Virus record (IMG/VR): IMGVR_UViG_3300015360_001306 | Coordinates: 1-33,741 of that record | DNA length: 33,741 bases | Reading direction: 5' to 3' (one strand) | Source of the DNA: a virus | Shown: piece by piece, positions 424-10,532 of the stretch | Layout of the letters: the number at the start of each line of letters is the position of its first letter | How positions within the stretch are numbered: the stretch's first letter is position 1 | Program-made: the position numbers and the translations under genes | The notes under the pieces: model-generated | Databases searched by the model: none | The model's input: only the letters and a program-made list of their open reading frames with translations | Told to the model about the DNA's origin: nothing

Positions 424-1314
424 ATGAGAAAACTAACACGAGAGCAGGTTCTCGAAACGCTAGAATCGAGCAAGGATTTTTCAAGGTGTGATTTATCGTA
501 CAGTAATTTAATTAGGTGCGATTTTTCAGGGTGTGATTTTTCGGGTAGCAATTTATCGTACAGTAATTTATCGATGTGCAATTTAACGGGGTACGATTTA
601 TCGGATAGCAATTTATCGGGCAGTAATTTATCGATGTGCAATTTAACGGGATGCGATTTGTCATACAGCGATTTTTCGGGCAGTAATTTATCGGGCAGTA
701 ATTTATCGCGGAGTAATTTATCGGATAGCAATTTATCGGGCAGTAATTTATCGAATAGCAAGTTACCGGATAGCAATTTCTCGGGCAGTAATTTATCGAT
801 GTGCAATTTAACGGGATGCAATTTAACGGGATGCGATTTTTCGGGCAGTAATTTATCGGGCAGTGATTTATCGCGGAGTAATTTAGGGTACAGTAATTTA
901 TCGCGTAGCAATTTAACAGGATGCGATTTAACGCGTAGTAATTTATGGGGCTGCAAGTTATCGGGATGCAATTTAAAATCTGCTAATTTAGTCGAAATTT
1001 TAGAGGATTTTACGAAAATCTTAAACGTAGCTCGAAACGAGGTACCGGATCTGTACTCGGCGCTAAAAAGTGGGCGAATAAACGGGACTCTATACGAGGG
1101 TGAATGTTCGTGTTTAGTCGGGACGATTGCGAATATTCGAGGTGAGTATTTTAAGAAACTGTCGATAAAACTAAAACCCAACGATACGAGACCGGCAGAA
1201 AGATGGTTTTTAAGGATTCGCGAAAACCAAACGCCGGAAACTAATCAAGTTAGCGCGATCACGTGCGAGTGGATCGAGGACTGGGCGAAAAATAACTCTA
1301 TAGAATTAAACTAA
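424..1314 (+). CDS. pentapeptide-repeat protein (copy 2 of the local family)
   Basis: The product has 296 residues. Residues 1-16 (MRKLTREQVLETLESS) look like a short helical cap. Residues 17-191 hold about 35 tandem pentapeptides of the form S/C-N/D-L/F-S/T-x (SNLSG, CNLTG, SNLSM), enough for roughly nine coils of a right-handed beta-helix. Residues 192-296 are the conserved C-terminal domain (EDFTKILNVARNEVPDLYSALKSGR, then GECSCLVGTIA, RPAERWFLRIR, CEWIEDWA). The ATG at 424 follows the Shine-Dalgarno cassette aacaggatataaa. Leucine is almost always TTA within the repeats, so the DNA is a 15-bp tandem array. Anti-gyrase, DNA-mimic or anti-defence roles are possible by family analogy only. 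Confidence 0.88.
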   Translation: MRKLTREQVLETLESSKDFSRCDLSYSNLIRCDFSGCDFSGSNLSYSNLSMCNLTGYDLSDSNLSGSNLSMCNLTGCDLSYSDFSGSNLSGSNLSRSNLSDSNLSGSNLSNSKLPDSNFSGSNLSMCNLTGCNLTGCDFSGSNLSGSDLSRSNLGYSNLSRSNLTGCDLTRSNLWGCKLSGCNLKSANLVEILEDFTKILNVARNEVPDLYSALKSGRINGTLYEGECSCLVGTIANIRGEYFKKLSIKLKPNDTRPAERWFLRIRENQTPETNQVSAITCEWIEDWAKNNSIELN

Positions 1315-1334
1315 GTAACTAAACAGGATATAAA

Positions 1335-2255
1335 ATGAAAAAACTAACACGAGAGCAGGTTCTCGAAAAGCTAAAATCGAGCAGGGATTTATCGGATAGT
1401 GATTTTTCAGGGTGCGATTTATCAGGGTGTAATTTTTCAGAGTGTTATTTAATCGGCAGTAATTTATCGCACCGTGATTTATCAGGGTGTAATTTTTCAG
1501 GGTCCAATTTATCGGATAGCAATTTATCCGGTAGTAATTTATCCGGTAGTAATTTATCCGGTAGTGATTTAATTAGGTGTGATTTTTCAGGGTGTAATTT
1601 ATCGGATAGTGATTTTTCAGGGTGCGATTTATCAGGGTGTAATTTTTCAGAGTGTTATTTAATCGGCAGTAATTTATCGGATAGCGATTTATCGGATAGC
1701 AATTTTTCAGGTAGTGATTTTTCAGGGTGTAATTTAACAGATAGTGATTTGTCGGACTGTACTTTATCGAGGTGCGATTTATCAGGTAGTAATTTATCGT
1801 ACAGTAATTTATCGGGTAGTAATTTGTCGCACTGTGATTTGTCGGACTGTGATTTGTCGGACAGTAATTTAACGGGATGCGAGTTTTCGCGGAGTGATTT
1901 ATCGGGTAGCGATTTAAAATCTGCCAATTTAGTTGAAATTTTAGAGGATTTTACGGAAATCCTAAACGTAGCTCGAAACGAGGTCGAACGGTTATACTCG
2001 GCGCTAAAAAAGGGTCGCATAGACGGAAATCTATACGAGGGTGAATGTGCCTGTTTAGTCGGGACAATCGCGAAGATTCGAGGTCAGAATTTTAGGAATC
2101 TGTCGATAAAACTAAAACCCAACGAGGCTAGACCGGCAGAAAGATGGTTTTTAAATATTAGAAAACACAACACTCCAGAAAATAGCCAATTTAGCGCGAT
2201 CACGTGCGAGTGGATCGAGGAATGGGCGAGAAATAACTCTGTAGAATTAAACTAA
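1335..2255 (+). CDS. pentapeptide-repeat protein (copy 3)
   Basis: The product has 306 residues with the same plan as its neighbours: a helical cap (MKKLTREQVLEKLKSS), about 37 pentapeptides (residues 17-201), and the shared C-terminal domain (VARNEVERLYSALKKGR, GECACLVGTIA, RPAERWFLNIR, CEWIEEWA). It contains an exact 83-bp internal repeat offset by 210 bp, which is 14 pentapeptides, so the helix was recently lengthened or rebuilt by in-register recombination. The start follows the aaacaggatataaa cassette, 20 bases after the stop of the previous gene. The cap and C-terminal domain are much closer between copies than the repeat order is. That fits selection on the ends and free drift in helix length. 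Confidence 0.88.
   Translation: MKKLTREQVLEKLKSSRDLSDSDFSGCDLSGCNFSECYLIGSNLSHRDLSGCNFSGSNLSDSNLSGSNLSGSNLSGSDLIRCDFSGCNLSDSDFSGCDLSGCNFSECYLIGSNLSDSDLSDSNFSGSDFSGCNLTDSDLSDCTLSRCDLSGSNLSYSNLSGSNLSHCDLSDCDLSDSNLTGCEFSRSDLSGSDLKSANLVEILEDFTEILNVARNEVERLYSALKKGRIDGNLYEGECACLVGTIAKIRGQNFRNLSIKLKPNEARPAERWFLNIRKHNTPENSQFSAITCEWIEEWARNNSVELN
1387..1679 (+). repeat. exact 83-bp direct repeat inside a pentapeptide gene (1387-1469 and 1597-1679)
   Basis: Bases 1387-1469 and 1597-1679 are identical by eye. The offset is 210 bp, an exact multiple of the 15-bp pentapeptide unit, so the reading frame and the helix register are both kept. The bases just outside the copies differ (g/a on the left, c/g on the right). 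This is what a recent duplication or conversion within the array would leave. Confidence 0.85.
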
Positions 2256-2282
2256 ATAACTAATAAATAAACAGGATACAAA

Positions 2283-3038
2283 ATGAGAAGACTGACAGAA
2301 AACGATATTCTCGAAGCGCTAAAATCGAACCGTGATTTATCGCACTGTCATTTATCGCACTGTGATTTATCGAGGTGCAATTTAACGGCATGCGATTTGT
2401 CCGGTAGTACTTTATGGAAGTGTAATTTATCGGGCAGTAATTTAGCAGGGTGTAATTTATATAATAGTGATTTCTCGGGTAGTAATTTTTCGGGTAGTGA
2501 TTTCTCGGGTAGTAATTTATCGTACAGTAATTTATCGGACTGTGATTTGTCGGACTGTGATTTGTCGGACTGTGATTTATCGTACAGTAATTTATCGAGG
2601 TGCAATTTATCGTACAGTAATTTATCGAGGTGCAATTTAACGGGATGCGATTTGTCCGGTAGTACTTTATGGAAGTGTAATTTATCGGACTGTGATTTAA
2701 AATCTGCCAATTTAGTTGAAATTTTAGAGGATTTTACGGAAATCCTAAACGTAGCTCGAAACGAGGTACCGGATCTGTACTCGGCGCTAGAAAGTGGGCG
2801 AATAAACGGAAATCTATACGAGGGAGAGTGCGCGTGTTTAGTCGGGACGATTGCGATTATTCGACGTGAGGATTTTAGGAAACTGTCGATAGATCTAGAA
2901 CCCGACGATACGAGGCCGGCAGAAAAATGGTTCTTGAATATTCGCAAGAACGACACTCCAGAAAATAGCCAAGTTAACGCGATCACGTGCGAGTGGATCG
3001 AGGAATGGGCGAAAAATAACTCTGTAGAATTAAACTAA
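2283..3038 (+). CDS. pentapeptide-repeat protein (copy 4, short helix)
   Basis: The product has 251 residues. After the cap MRRLTENDILEALKSN come only about 26 pentapeptides (residues 17-146), nine to eleven fewer than in the two upstream copies, then the shared C-terminal domain (EILNVARNEVPDLYSALESGR, GECACLVGTIAIIR, RPAEKWFLNIR, CEWIEEWA). The units STLWK-CNLS occur twice, showing another internal duplication. Some positions deviate from the core pattern (STLWK, CHLSH) but keep a hydrophobic centre. The start follows aaacaggatacaaa, 27 bases after the previous stop. It is the last pentapeptide gene of the series. Function is unknown beyond the fold. Confidence 0.87.
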   Translation: MRRLTENDILEALKSNRDLSHCHLSHCDLSRCNLTACDLSGSTLWKCNLSGSNLAGCNLYNSDFSGSNFSGSDFSGSNLSYSNLSDCDLSDCDLSDCDLSYSNLSRCNLSYSNLSRCNLTGCDLSGSTLWKCNLSDCDLKSANLVEILEDFTEILNVARNEVPDLYSALESGRINGNLYEGECACLVGTIAIIRREDFRKLSIDLEPDDTRPAEKWFLNIRKNDTPENSQVNAITCEWIEEWAKNNSVELN

Positions 3039-3062
3039 ATAAATAAATAAACAGGATACAAA

Positions 3063-3299
3063 ATGAAACGAAGATTCTGCTTGTTCCACAGTGTGCAAAA
3101 CTTAGCTTATACAAACGGCAAACTCGTGGGTCAAATATTGGTTACGGACGAGGCTACCAGTGAGGTTCTAGTATTATGCCGATTTAAAACCGATGAGGCG
3201 CTTTTTGATTTTGAATTCCCACACTACTACTACCCGAGCCAAATTTATCAGGGAATTAACGAGGCGATTGTAGCGGAATTCAACCAAACAACTAACTAA
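3063..3299 (+). CDS. small hypothetical protein in the pentapeptide operon
   Basis: The product has 78 residues and I do not recognise it. It looks like a small soluble alpha/beta protein: a beta-rich first half (RRFCLFHSVQNLAYTNGKLV, then QILVTDEA), a run of three tyrosines at HYYYPSQIY, and a C-terminal helix. There is no signal peptide or membrane segment. It uses the same Shine-Dalgarno cassette (aaacaggatacaaaATG) as the pentapeptide genes and starts 25 bases after the last of them. It is therefore almost certainly co-transcribed and was probably amplified or shuffled with the same 5' module. Confidence 0.7.
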   Translation: MKRRFCLFHSVQNLAYTNGKLVGQILVTDEATSEVLVLCRFKTDEALFDFEFPHYYYPSQIYQGINEAIVAEFNQTTN

Positions 3300-3319
3300 A
3301 TAAATAAACAGGATACAAA

Positions 3320-3505
3320 ATGAAATTATTAGCTAAACGACAGCGCGTAGCTGCACGAATCACTCAAGAAACTCAGCGCCAACTACACGCTCTAGGGGAT
3401 AAATGGGGCGAATCGGCGAGTGAGGTGGTATCTAGATCGTTAGCGGAGGCGTATCTGATCCATTGCGAGGATTTAGTTAAGCGCCAACGGCTTCTTAAAC
3501 ACTAA
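3320..3505 (+). CDS. small ribbon-helix-helix-like DNA-binding protein
   Basis: The product has 61 residues. It has a basic N-terminus and a possible beta-strand (RVAARI), then two helices (residues about 14-28 and 33-48), in the order strand-helix-helix expected of CopG/Arc-type regulators. The segment GESASEVVSRSLAEAYL resembles the second helix of that fold. It is the last plus-strand gene here and ends six bases before the stop of the converging gene at 3512. Its start carries the same aaacaggatacaaa cassette as the upstream genes. By its position it could autoregulate the pentapeptide operon, perhaps at the 19-bp palindrome near 33436, but that is inference from gene size and context only. 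Confidence 0.6.
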   Translation: MKLLAKRQRVAARITQETQRQLHALGDKWGESASEVVSRSLAEAYLIHCEDLVKRQRLLKH

Positions 3506-3511
3506 TTATTT

Positions 3512-3946
3512 TTAACGTTCGGTGTTAGCGTCGTTTGGATCTGGCAGTAAACCACAGCGCTGGAATTCCTGCTCAATCTCGTGCCTCACTTTATACACGT
3601 ACCGTTTTGCCGTTTTATCTGATTTCCCGATAGCAATCGCTATTGCGTCGAAACCTAGTTGGTGCTCTCGAGGAAACAGATATCTAGCGGAAAACGCCCT
3701 AACTTGCTGCGACTCGGCTCCGAGGTAGTTTAAAAGTGTTGTAAGACGCCTACAGATAAATGACCACAGCGCATTCCTGTCTGTGAGAGTAGCGACCACA
3801 TCGCCCTGAGCGCCTCTGATCTCTAAATCCCAGGTTTCGGGAACTGAAACAGAATCAATCTCGAACATATTTTTCGCAATATACCGCCCTGGTTTACAGT
3901 AGGTATAGTACGCGAGAATTTGATCTACAGTTTCAAATCGCGGCAT
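3512..3946 (-). CDS. helix-turn-helix protein, candidate late transcription regulator
   Basis: The product has 144 residues. The C-terminal half (about residues 85-135: FDAIAIAIGKSDKTAKRYVYKVRHEIEQEF) reads like a sigma region 4 or ArpU/RinA-type helix-turn-helix, with AIAIAIGKSDKTAKRYV as the turn and recognition helix. The N-terminal half is unrecognised. It is the last gene of the leftward early operon, the usual place for a late activator or antiterminator, but no close family can be named. The ATG at 3946 lacks a Shine-Dalgarno site. The bases before it are the T-run of a strong terminator, so expression probably depends on readthrough or a separate start signal. Confidence 0.65.
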   Translation of the reverse strand: MPRFETVDQILAYYTYCKPGRYIAKNMFEIDSVSVPETWDLEIRGAQGDVVATLTDRNALWSFICRRLTTLLNYLGAESQQVRAFSARYLFPREHQLGFDAIAIAIGKSDKTAKRYVYKVRHEIEQEFQRCGLLPDPNDANTER

Positions 3947-3954
3947 AAGCGAAC

Positions 3955-3989
3955 AAAAAAAGAGCGGTTAGTGCAACCTAATCCGCTCT
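3955..3989 (-). terminator. strong intrinsic terminator just upstream of the 3512-3946 gene
   Basis: On the minus strand the stem AGAGCGG/CCGCTCT is extended by TTAG/CTAA with a one-base bulge. The loop is GTTGCA and seven Ts follow. It sits only eight bases before the ATG at 3946 and downstream of the rest of the early leftward operon. It therefore either ends that operon, with the last gene reached by antitermination, or ends a short separate RNA starting near 4040. Confidence 0.85.
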
Positions 3990-4040
3990 CAGAGGAGGTG
4001 ATCCCTACTAGATTTTCCGTTCAACGAATGCCGGGAACAA
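3955..4040 (-). ncRNA. candidate ~85-nt small RNA with a 16S rRNA 3'-end (anti-Shine-Dalgarno) match
   Basis: A TATAAT box on the minus strand (4052 to 4047) would start a transcript near 4040, and the terminator at 3955-3989 would end it, giving about 85 nt. The RNA would contain GGATCACCTCCT (4005 down to 3994), identical to the last bases of bacterial 16S rRNA including the anti-Shine-Dalgarno. It lies just 5' of the terminator hairpin, in single-stranded context. No good -35 box is visible; a 19-bp palindrome takes its place. No protein-coding frame of note runs through it. That the RNA exists is inference from promoter, terminator and match; the match itself is read directly. Confidence 0.45.
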
Positions 4041-4046
4041 TCTGTA

Positions 4047-4070
4047 ATTATAATTGTATCAAATACAATT
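4047..4070 (-). promoter_or_regulatory. 19-bp perfect palindrome abutting a TATAAT box
   Basis: AATTGTATCAAATACAATT (4052-4070) has 8-bp arms and a 3-base spacer. A perfect -10 box, TATAAT, occupies 4052-4047 on the minus strand and overlaps the palindrome by one base. The palindrome covers the -35/spacer region where an activator or repressor would bind. No consensus -35 hexamer lies 16-18 bases upstream, which suits an activator-dependent promoter. Confidence 0.55.
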
Positions 4071-4072
4071 CG

Positions 4073-4096
4073 GCCCACAAGACGGGCACTTTTTTT
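4073..4096 (+). terminator. possible plus-strand terminator closing the pentapeptide operon
   Basis: GCCC (4073-4076) and GGGC (4084-4087) form a short GC stem with a 7-base loop, followed by AC and eight Ts. The stem is only 4 bp, so the call is weak. No better plus-strand terminator lies after the stop at 3505. If real, the operon's mRNA would run antisense through the whole 3512-3946 gene and the small RNA candidate. Confidence 0.3.
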
Positions 4097-4521
4097 TATT
4101 TTTTACAGCGCTTGTGCGCCCTATATAATTTCCTATCACTAGGTTTTTTTGACAACTCCTCAGTCACGTAATCCTGCACGGCCTCCATTAAACCAGGTAC
4201 ATCCTCGGTCAACATAGAACAATCGTGTGAAAAAATGCCTTCGTATCCCTCTAGCTCAAACAGGTAACTTAAAGCGTCGTCCACCATTCTGGAGCGCTGC
4301 ATTTTTTCATTACTATCGATAGTAGTTTTACTATACTCCGAACCGCTCAATTTATAAGTCAGCAACCCGCCGACTAAAATATCAGCAACGGCTCTTTCAA
4401 TTATTGCCGCCCACAGCTGTTTTTCACCGCCTAAAAATTCCGGCATAACCTCTGAAAAATCCGAGTCTAACGTATAGTGTTGGTCTTGGGCTTCCGTTCC
4501 CAATGTGCTGTAGTCCGTCAC
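4096..4521 (-). CDS. hypothetical protein, coupled to the VRR-NUC gene
   Basis: The product has 141 residues, acidic in its N-terminal half and basic at the end (DRKLYRAHKRCKK). I do not recognise it. No membrane segment is clear, though VADILVGGLLTY is a short hydrophobic stretch. It starts with GTG at 4521, overlapping the TGA of the nuclease gene in GTGA, so translation is coupled. The partnership with a nuclease in an early operon suggests a DNA-metabolism role, but nothing in the sequence proves it. Confidence 0.65.
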   Translation of the reverse strand: MTDYSTLGTEAQDQHYTLDSDFSEVMPEFLGGEKQLWAAIIERAVADILVGGLLTYKLSGSEYSKTTIDSNEKMQRSRMVDDALSYLFELEGYEGIFSHDCSMLTEDVPGLMEAVQDYVTEELSKKPSDRKLYRAHKRCKK

Positions 4522-9254: not shown

Positions 9255-9497
9255 ATGGCTGTGAAATTTTTCCAAAAATTTAAAAATCTTAGTGGGTTGA
9301 AAAACTACGGTGTGGCTCAAGCTTTGCGTCGGCGACACGGTGTGGAAATATCAATCACTGGTTTAAGTGGCTACGATAAACCGAAAGCGAGAGGGATGCG
9401 CTTAGACGTACTTTGCGGAATACGCCGTCTGTCAGAACAACCCTGGGACGAGTTCGGCAAGTGGTTGGATGAGGAGTTCTTAAAGCAACAAAAATGA
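9255..9497 (+). CDS. Cro/CI-like helix-turn-helix regulator, likely leaderless
   Basis: The product has 80 residues. Residues about 14-50 (LKNYGVAQALRRRHGVEISITGLSGYDKPKARGMRLDVLCGI) fit an XRE-type DNA-binding domain: VAQALRRRHG as helix 2, SITGLSGYDK as the recognition helix, and MRLDVLCGIRRLS as the following helix. There is no peptidase or oligomerisation domain of the LexA type, so it is Cro-sized rather than full CI-sized. It is transcribed away from the leftward operon across a compact region with operator-like dyads. The -10 box ends six bases before the ATG and there is no ribosome site. It probably represses the leftward promoter, its own, or both. Confidence 0.7.
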   Translation: MAVKFFQKFKNLSGLKNYGVAQALRRRHGVEISITGLSGYDKPKARGMRLDVLCGIRRLSEQPWDEFGKWLDEEFLKQQK

Positions 9498-9506
9498 GGT
9501 GGGGTG

Positions 9507-9893
9507 ATGAAAATAGTAGTGTCGTCGGTATTGGTGTCGGTGTTTGTCGCTAGTTCAGCGCTCGGTCAGCAGGTAGGCTGTTTCGTAAATTTTAGCAGTC
9601 CGACCCAATGCGACGAGGACGAGATCGCGTGTGGCGAGAATGTTACAGAGAACCTAGGAAAATACGGTTACCCGATTGCTTTTCTGTGCACCTCCGCCAA
9701 TCGCGCGGCTCGAGCGGCTCAAGACGCCGTGAGTCTCCAACAGGTGTGCACCAACTATCTCAGAGAGTGTCAAACGGCGTATAACAACACTGAATGGAAT
9801 CGTGAGCAGTGGGTAGCCTACTCTAATTATCAAGCGGGCGTAATAAAAAAATTGGTGCGAGCCTGCGGCTCAAAGTGCAAGCGAATTAGGTAG
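9507..9893 (+). CDS. exported cysteine-rich protein next to the regulator
   Basis: From the ATG at 9507 the product has 128 residues. MKIVVSSVLVSVFVASSALG is a clear Sec signal peptide with a likely cut before QQ. The mature part (about 108 residues) holds eight cysteines, suggesting disulfides in the periplasm or outside the cell, and ends in a basic tail (CGSKCKRIR). The Shine-Dalgarno GAGG precedes the ATG by seven bases; a GTG three bases earlier is also in frame. It follows the regulator by nine bases and would be expressed in the same state. That suits lysogenic conversion or superinfection exclusion, but no family is recognised and the function is unproven. Confidence 0.65.
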   Translation: MKIVVSSVLVSVFVASSALGQQVGCFVNFSSPTQCDEDEIACGENVTENLGKYGYPIAFLCTSANRAARAAQDAVSLQQVCTNYLRECQTAYNNTEWNREQWVAYSNYQAGVIKKLVRACGSKCKRIR

Positions 9894-9899
9894 CGCACT

Positions 9900-9965
9900 T
9901 TTTATCACTCTGTCCTTTGTCTGTCTCTTGTCTGCCTCCATTGTCTCTGCTATTACTGTCTCTAG
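9900..9965 (+). repeat. TGTCT-rich pyrimidine leader before the two-HTH gene
   Basis: TGTC occurs six times within 50 bases (9911, 9918, 9922, 9929, 9942, 9957), nearly always within C/T-rich sequence. The gene that follows is rich in the complement (AGACAG, GACAG). No promoter or coding frame is evident in this short gap. Confidence 0.6.
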
Positions 9966-9989
9966 ATGTCGGCATTAGAGAAGGGGATT

Positions 9990-10532
9990 ATGCGCTGGAT
10001 AGAAAAGCGAGCAGCAGCGGAATATCTGGGTGTCTCTGAAAAGAGCATCGAACGGTACAAAGACAAGTACAATTTAGAAGTAAAGACAGAATCCCGACCG
10101 GGCCGCACCAGGCCTGTCGTCTTATTCCTGCATGACGATTTATCGAGTCTTAAAAGCAAGTTATCACAGACAGTATACAGACCACCCGTCGCTATTACCC
10201 CCAAAAACCTACCAGTAGAGTCGATAGATGTTCCACGGGAATGTTCCACGACGGCCGTAACGACAACAAAAAAAGAGGGAGATGGGGAGCGCCTATTAGA
10301 GTTTTTTAGGGCGTTGGAGGACAGGGTAATTAAGACAGCGACAAAATACAGACAGGACGTCCCGATCGAGGTAAAACTGCTATTGAGTATTCGAGAGGCT
10401 CAAAAACTTACGGGACTGAGTAGGGACAGATTAAGACAGGCAATACAGACAGGAGGTCTGAAAGCGCAGTTGATAGGGCGGGGGTGGAGAGTGAAGCGGT
10501 CGGATCTAGAGAGGTATATAGACGGGATATGA
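9990..10532 (+). CDS. protein with two helix-turn-helix domains, excisionase-like C-terminus
   Basis: The product has 180 residues from the ATG at 9990, chosen for its GAGAAGGGG site; an ATG at 9966 has none. The N-terminal domain (MRWIEKRAAAEYLGVSEKSIERYKDKY, with a wing RPGRTRPVVLF) and the C-terminal domain (LLLSIREAQKLTGLSRDRLRQAIQTGGLKAQLIGRGWRVKRSDLERYI) both have the MerR/excisionase winged-HTH pattern. A Thr-rich linker (about 80-105) joins them. Two such domains in one chain would let it bridge or bend two sites. The gene is unusually rich in ACAG/GACAG words. It ends 11 bases before the 28-bp palindrome. No integrase is in view, so a recombination directionality role is unproven; transcription regulation is equally possible. 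Confidence 0.7.
   Translation: MRWIEKRAAAEYLGVSEKSIERYKDKYNLEVKTESRPGRTRPVVLFLHDDLSSLKSKLSQTVYRPPVAITPKNLPVESIDVPRECSTTAVTTTKKEGDGERLLEFFRALEDRVIKTATKYRQDVPIEVKLLLSIREAQKLTGLSRDRLRQAIQTGGLKAQLIGRGWRVKRSDLERYIDGI

Follow-up and report, generated by a model that had tools for sequence, protein, structure and literature searches.

A candidate anti-Shine-Dalgarno RNA before an intrinsic terminator in a tailed-phage genome

The window analysed here, a 33,741-base virus record, contains on its minus strand, at positions 3993-4004, the sequence GGATCACCTCCT, an exact match to the 12 nt that stand just before the terminal residues of bacterial 16S rRNA (the anti-Shine-Dalgarno, or aSD). The site is non-coding, and the 30-nt hairpin of an intrinsic terminator begins 2 nt downstream of it. 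A terminated transcript bearing the aSD is plausible at this locus, and a matching layout is found in two other phage sets. That the window encodes a working anti-Shine-Dalgarno RNA, including its pairing in trans, is a tentative reading that falls somewhat short of probable. It would be a possible phage version of a kind of RNA known from bacterial chromosomes and, if real, would let phages reset an infected cell's translation by a very small RNA route.

The 12-mer and its surroundings in the window

The window belongs to a tailed phage with mostly minus-strand genes, including those for terminase, portal, major head protein and tail protein, and it also encodes a GDSL lipase, lysozyme-type genes and a RecT/Bet-like annealing protein. 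The 12-mer is present in a single copy, within the 149-nt gap between the minus-strand genes 4096-4521 and 3512-3946. The first-pass annotation had its letters and strand exactly, but placed it one base off, at 3994-4005. Identity with 16S rRNA ends at 12 nt, the next window base being C where 16S usually has T. No identity was found beyond this point: the flanking bases differ and the window has no Rfam rRNA match, and the site does not class as a fragment of a 16S rRNA gene. The 12-mer appears in none of 100 dinucleotide shuffles of the window, and a first-order Markov estimate over both strands gives approximately 0.0016 expected copies, in line with the earlier claim that it should occur well under once. 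When the copy must also lie no more than 30 nt ahead of some terminator-like hairpin, the expectation in the window is about 2.5e-5. Such a 12-mer beside a terminator is striking in a single window, but not in a large collection.

The terminator (minus strand, 3955-3990) consists of a hairpin at 3990-3961 and a T-run at 3961-3955, that is, GAGAGCGGATTAGGTTGCACTAACCGCTCT followed by T7, with a folding energy of -15 to -17 kcal/mol and a shuffle p of 0.001. Its strength is as first described, and the element possesses the intrinsic terminator of its own that is expected of a functional trans-acting anti-SD small RNA. The candidate 5' hairpin of the RNA (minus strand, 4010-4042) is weak, at -6.4 to -8.6 kcal/mol with a shuffle p of 0.10-0.20, and lies 5 nt away from the 12-nt tail. 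Taken whole, the RNA has a modest fold (z = -1.8). The aSD core, with a mean unpaired probability of 0.58, is only partly unpaired, so its earlier placement in a loop is half right.

Of the promoter claimed in the first-pass annotation, the TATAAT is present as a possible -10 box (minus strand, 4052-4047), but no -35 box accompanies it and the promoter scan of the window lists nothing there, which leaves an independent promoter unproven. The TATAAT also reads on the opposite strand, since ATTATAAT is its own reverse complement. The adjoining 19-bp palindrome is indeed present at 4052-4070, as the inverted repeat AATTGTAT-caa-ATACAATT, a possible operator or RNA hairpin. A search for AATTGTATcaaATACAATT with at most three mismatches yielded three matches in the window against 1.75 expected, ruling it out as a repeated operator.

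The gene upstream (minus strand, 4096-4521) encodes 141 aa and the gene downstream (minus strand, 3512-3946) encodes 144 aa, with a possible helix-turn-helix by eye. Both have positive codon scores; family searches place neither in a known family, no relatives of either were found in the collections searched, and the window DNA had no useful relatives there. The ATG of the downstream gene stands 9 nt past the T-run of the terminator, and its leader forms a duplex of only -1.8 kcal/mol, which agrees with the earlier statement that it has no Shine-Dalgarno.

In the proposed mechanism, the minus-strand RNA would most likely be the 3' end of an operon ending with gene 4096-4521 and would stop at the 3955 terminator, with the 12 nt of the 16S end lying between the 5' hairpin and the terminator hairpin. 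Alternatively, it might start at the TATAAT and form a transcript of its own, about 87 nt long. The element could just as well be the 3' UTR of gene 4096-4521. Once transcribed and released as a small RNA, it would act in trans: CACCUCCU would pair with Shine-Dalgarno leaders, whether on host or on phage mRNAs, and reduce translation from them, possibly to the benefit of the phage. For the binding of S1 or initiation factors, also suggested in the first-pass annotation, the evidence gathered speaks neither way. Given many phage genes in the window have GAGG or GGAGG leaders, targets for an anti-SD RNA exist.

Two phage sets with the same layout

In the IMG/VR scan, the layout of a stable hairpin, GGATCACCTCCT and a terminator was also found in two mutually unrelated phage sets, which provides outside support for the idea of an anti-SD RNA. 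For the small RNA first proposed at the window locus, the terminator is thus joined by a recurring layout, but not by a proven promoter. All comparison loci were chosen by the exact 12-mer, and its invariance among them proves nothing. The stable hairpin, which the query did not ask for, abuts the 12-mer in these loci, not in the window, and has a shuffle p of 0.001-0.008 in five of the six loci (0.09 in L249).

The first set comprises L105 (4042-4128, plus), L189 (3660-3738), L193 (2419-2495) and L249 (6084-6163, minus), the last of which came from scanning genomes and lies on a contig catalogued under a Lachnospiraceae MAG. By eye, the element stands behind the last of the structural or lysis-type genes; it consists of a hairpin with a GAGA loop, GGATCACCTCCT and the terminator. 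Comparable proteins of these phages are at most 44% identical, and the element is 69-83% identical over 84-119 nt; it is the sole DNA match between L249 and either L189 or L193, and the best match between L249 and L105. Stem pairs vary with pairing kept, both sides having changed in 2 of 20, and the folding of every member is more stable than that of its shuffles by 4 to 5 standard deviations. At least in this set, then, a structured RNA element is conserved, one that is open to direct testing and is a better candidate and test case than the window's own. A common upstream sequence, TAGACCTTTAA(G/A)TCAGTAAA, is shared by L105, L193 and L249.

The second set consists of the related phages L101 (1702-1770, minus) and L180 (7918-7990, minus), in which the element comes directly after a gene judged porin-like by eye, whose protein is without a match in the collection of named phages. 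The terminator stems of the two differ, and the 5' stem takes in GGAT. The aSD core has an unpaired probability of 0.98-0.99 in this set and of 0.53-0.64 in the first.

The window element has its parts in the same order as the first set. Under the covariance model of that set it scores 13.1 bits (E = 0.13) versus 87-95 bits for the members, and homology was rejected. When some 1,200 bacterial genomes were scanned with covariance model R1, a high score was confined to the genome of L249; a match of 36.9 bits (L296) was rejected as coding DNA, and six weaker ones (L290-L295) were rejected for having no aSD before the terminator. At the gathering score, Rfam gave no family for the window or the other loci, the best window E-values being 3.5-4.6 to unrelated families. 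The elements of L189, L193 and L101 have no copy among the named phage records.

Database counts and rival explanations

The IMG/VR query required GGATCACCTCCT not followed by T, with a T-run 19-38 nt on, and the reversed word served as the control. The real word matched 33 stretches and the control word 13, the majority of the real-word matches being coding sequence or antisense Shine-Dalgarnos. Non-coding matches with a strong terminator numbered four for the real word (L101, L180, L189 and L193, in two sets) versus one for the control (L208). These counts alone show no clear excess, as the real word barely exceeds the control. A wider scan with GGATCACCTCCTN{18,48}TTTTTT gave 119 matches, again mostly coding or antisense Shine-Dalgarnos; L105 was found there, and one recurrent small gene with TGGDPK is among the coding matches. 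A genome scan for GGAGAC followed by the 12-mer gave 76 matches, with the full layout in L249 only. No general enrichment of the aSD before phage terminators was found, since among 92 terminators in the loci collected for this analysis only the pre-selected matches have it. Three other loci were set aside, L196 because it falls in an open frame with a possible TAA stop just inside the 3' flank of the 12-mer, and L084 and L123 for lacking a 5' hairpin. In L141 (a contig of about 157 kb; minus strand, around 1705-1804), a long perfect hairpin, with T6 after it, carries the 12-mer in its apical loop.

For the window locus alone, chance is almost as likely as an anti-SD RNA, because the element has no homology to the L189 set, its 5' hairpin is weak, its fold is modest and the flanking genes have no relatives. 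On this reading the element would be an operon's usual terminator, with a 5' flank that by accident agrees with the end of 16S rRNA for 12 nt and no more. The control match L208, itself non-coding and before a strong terminator, speaks for this, and suggests that, across the collection, roughly one accidental match of this sort should be expected for each word. The stop of the 16S identity at exactly 12 nt points the same way, as does the absence of the exact 12-mer from 48 records of distant portal or TerL relatives, many of them fragments (one has a match with one mismatch). The weak 5' hairpin, the modest fold and these relatives count against the anti-SD RNA together with the missing -35 box; the four IMG/VR records in two sets versus one control, the selection of loci by the 12-mer and the lack of homology to either set also weigh against it. 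Chance, however, has to account for the 2.5e-5 expectation beside a terminator in the window, and for a layout seen again in two phage sets that are not related to each other, one of which is conserved.

A role in cis is rather improbable. Here the terminator would be an attenuator of gene 3512-3946, expressed by read-through only, and the aSD stretch would enter an alternative helix with the first arm of the terminator. The terminator does stand directly before that gene, which has no Shine-Dalgarno itself, and a truncated transcript folds ACCUCCUCU against AGAGCGGAUUAGGU. Yet the alternative helix is far weaker than the terminator, and the elements of the other phage sets close operons instead of standing directly before a start codon.

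It is very unlikely that the plus strand is the one that works, through a transcript running to a terminator at about 4097 whose Shine-Dalgarno would be bait for the 30S subunit or the antisense partner of the minus-strand RNA. As first noted, the plus strand reads a full-length Shine-Dalgarno-like AGGAGGTGATCC with no start in range, the closest ATG being 29 nt after AGGAGG. A terminator-like hairpin (GCCC-N7-GGGC, by eye) with a T-run follows at 4073-4097, and the strand is structured at the site (z = -2.35). No plus promoter precedes the site, however, and there is no coding frame, the 83-aa plus frame across it having a negative codon score and non-coding codon usage; in the other sets the T-run is on the aSD strand. 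Finally, an attP carrying the 16S gene end, restored on insertion, is barely credible: an excisionase-like regulator at 9966-10532 and an integrase gene near the element in L189 and L193 would fit, but no integrase was recognised among the window proteins scanned, the 16S identity stops at 12 nt, and the neighbouring gene in L105 and L249 is not an integrase.

Known RNAs and further features of the window

In the literature searched, to which most subscription papers did not belong, no phage-encoded anti-Shine-Dalgarno RNA was found. The closest comparison is with the alpha-r14 ("cuckoo"-type) anti-SD small RNAs, e.g., NfeR1 of Sinorhizobium, which carry CCUCCUCCC unpaired in each of three hairpins with divergent stems; they are chromosomal in alphaproteobacteria, and pairing with Shine-Dalgarno leaders has been proposed for them (PMC10746234). 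The proposed window RNA would likewise be small and structured, with its anti-SD motif in part outside stems that are free to diverge. Unlike them, it is phage-borne and has a single copy, in which CACCUCCU forms part of a 12-nt match to the 16S end immediately ahead of a terminator. With that single copy and no Rfam match at the gathering score, it does not belong to the alpha-r14/cuckoo family; by analogy, it would most likely work like these RNAs without being one. The SisA-D small RNAs of Caulobacter share a 10-mer with an anti-SD signature, and differ from the window element in being chromosomal siblings with measured expression (PMC12559287). AgvB and AsxR are phage-encoded RNA sponges (PMC12559287) and, like the proposed window RNA, small RNAs of phage origin acting on host RNA regulation, but they bind small RNAs (GcvB and FnrS) and not Shine-Dalgarno sites.

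The 12-nt tail is shared with the 3' end of 16S rRNA. That tail is preceded in 16S rRNA by helix 45; the corresponding place in the L189 set, just before the tail, is taken by an 8-bp hairpin whose GAGA loop is a purine tetraloop. We consider it unlikely, although conceivable, that unrelated phage lineages converged on RNAs mimicking the 16S 3' end (a hairpin plus GGAUCACCUCCU), which would compete with ribosomes for Shine-Dalgarno leaders, or draw off factors acting on the 16S tail, late in infection. The resemblance is poor in the window, which, unlike the 16S end, has its weak hairpin at a distance and no identity past the tail.

Elsewhere in the window, a small plus-strand block at 9255-10532, in an otherwise minus-strand genome, is possibly a control region; it holds the excisionase/HTH_17-like regulator, and no integrase was recognised. 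Another plus-strand run, at 424-3505, has five genes, of which at least two encode pentapeptide-repeat proteins by Pfam and a third by PHROGs. Each of the five is preceded by a near-identical leader, AACAGGATA(T/C)AAA.
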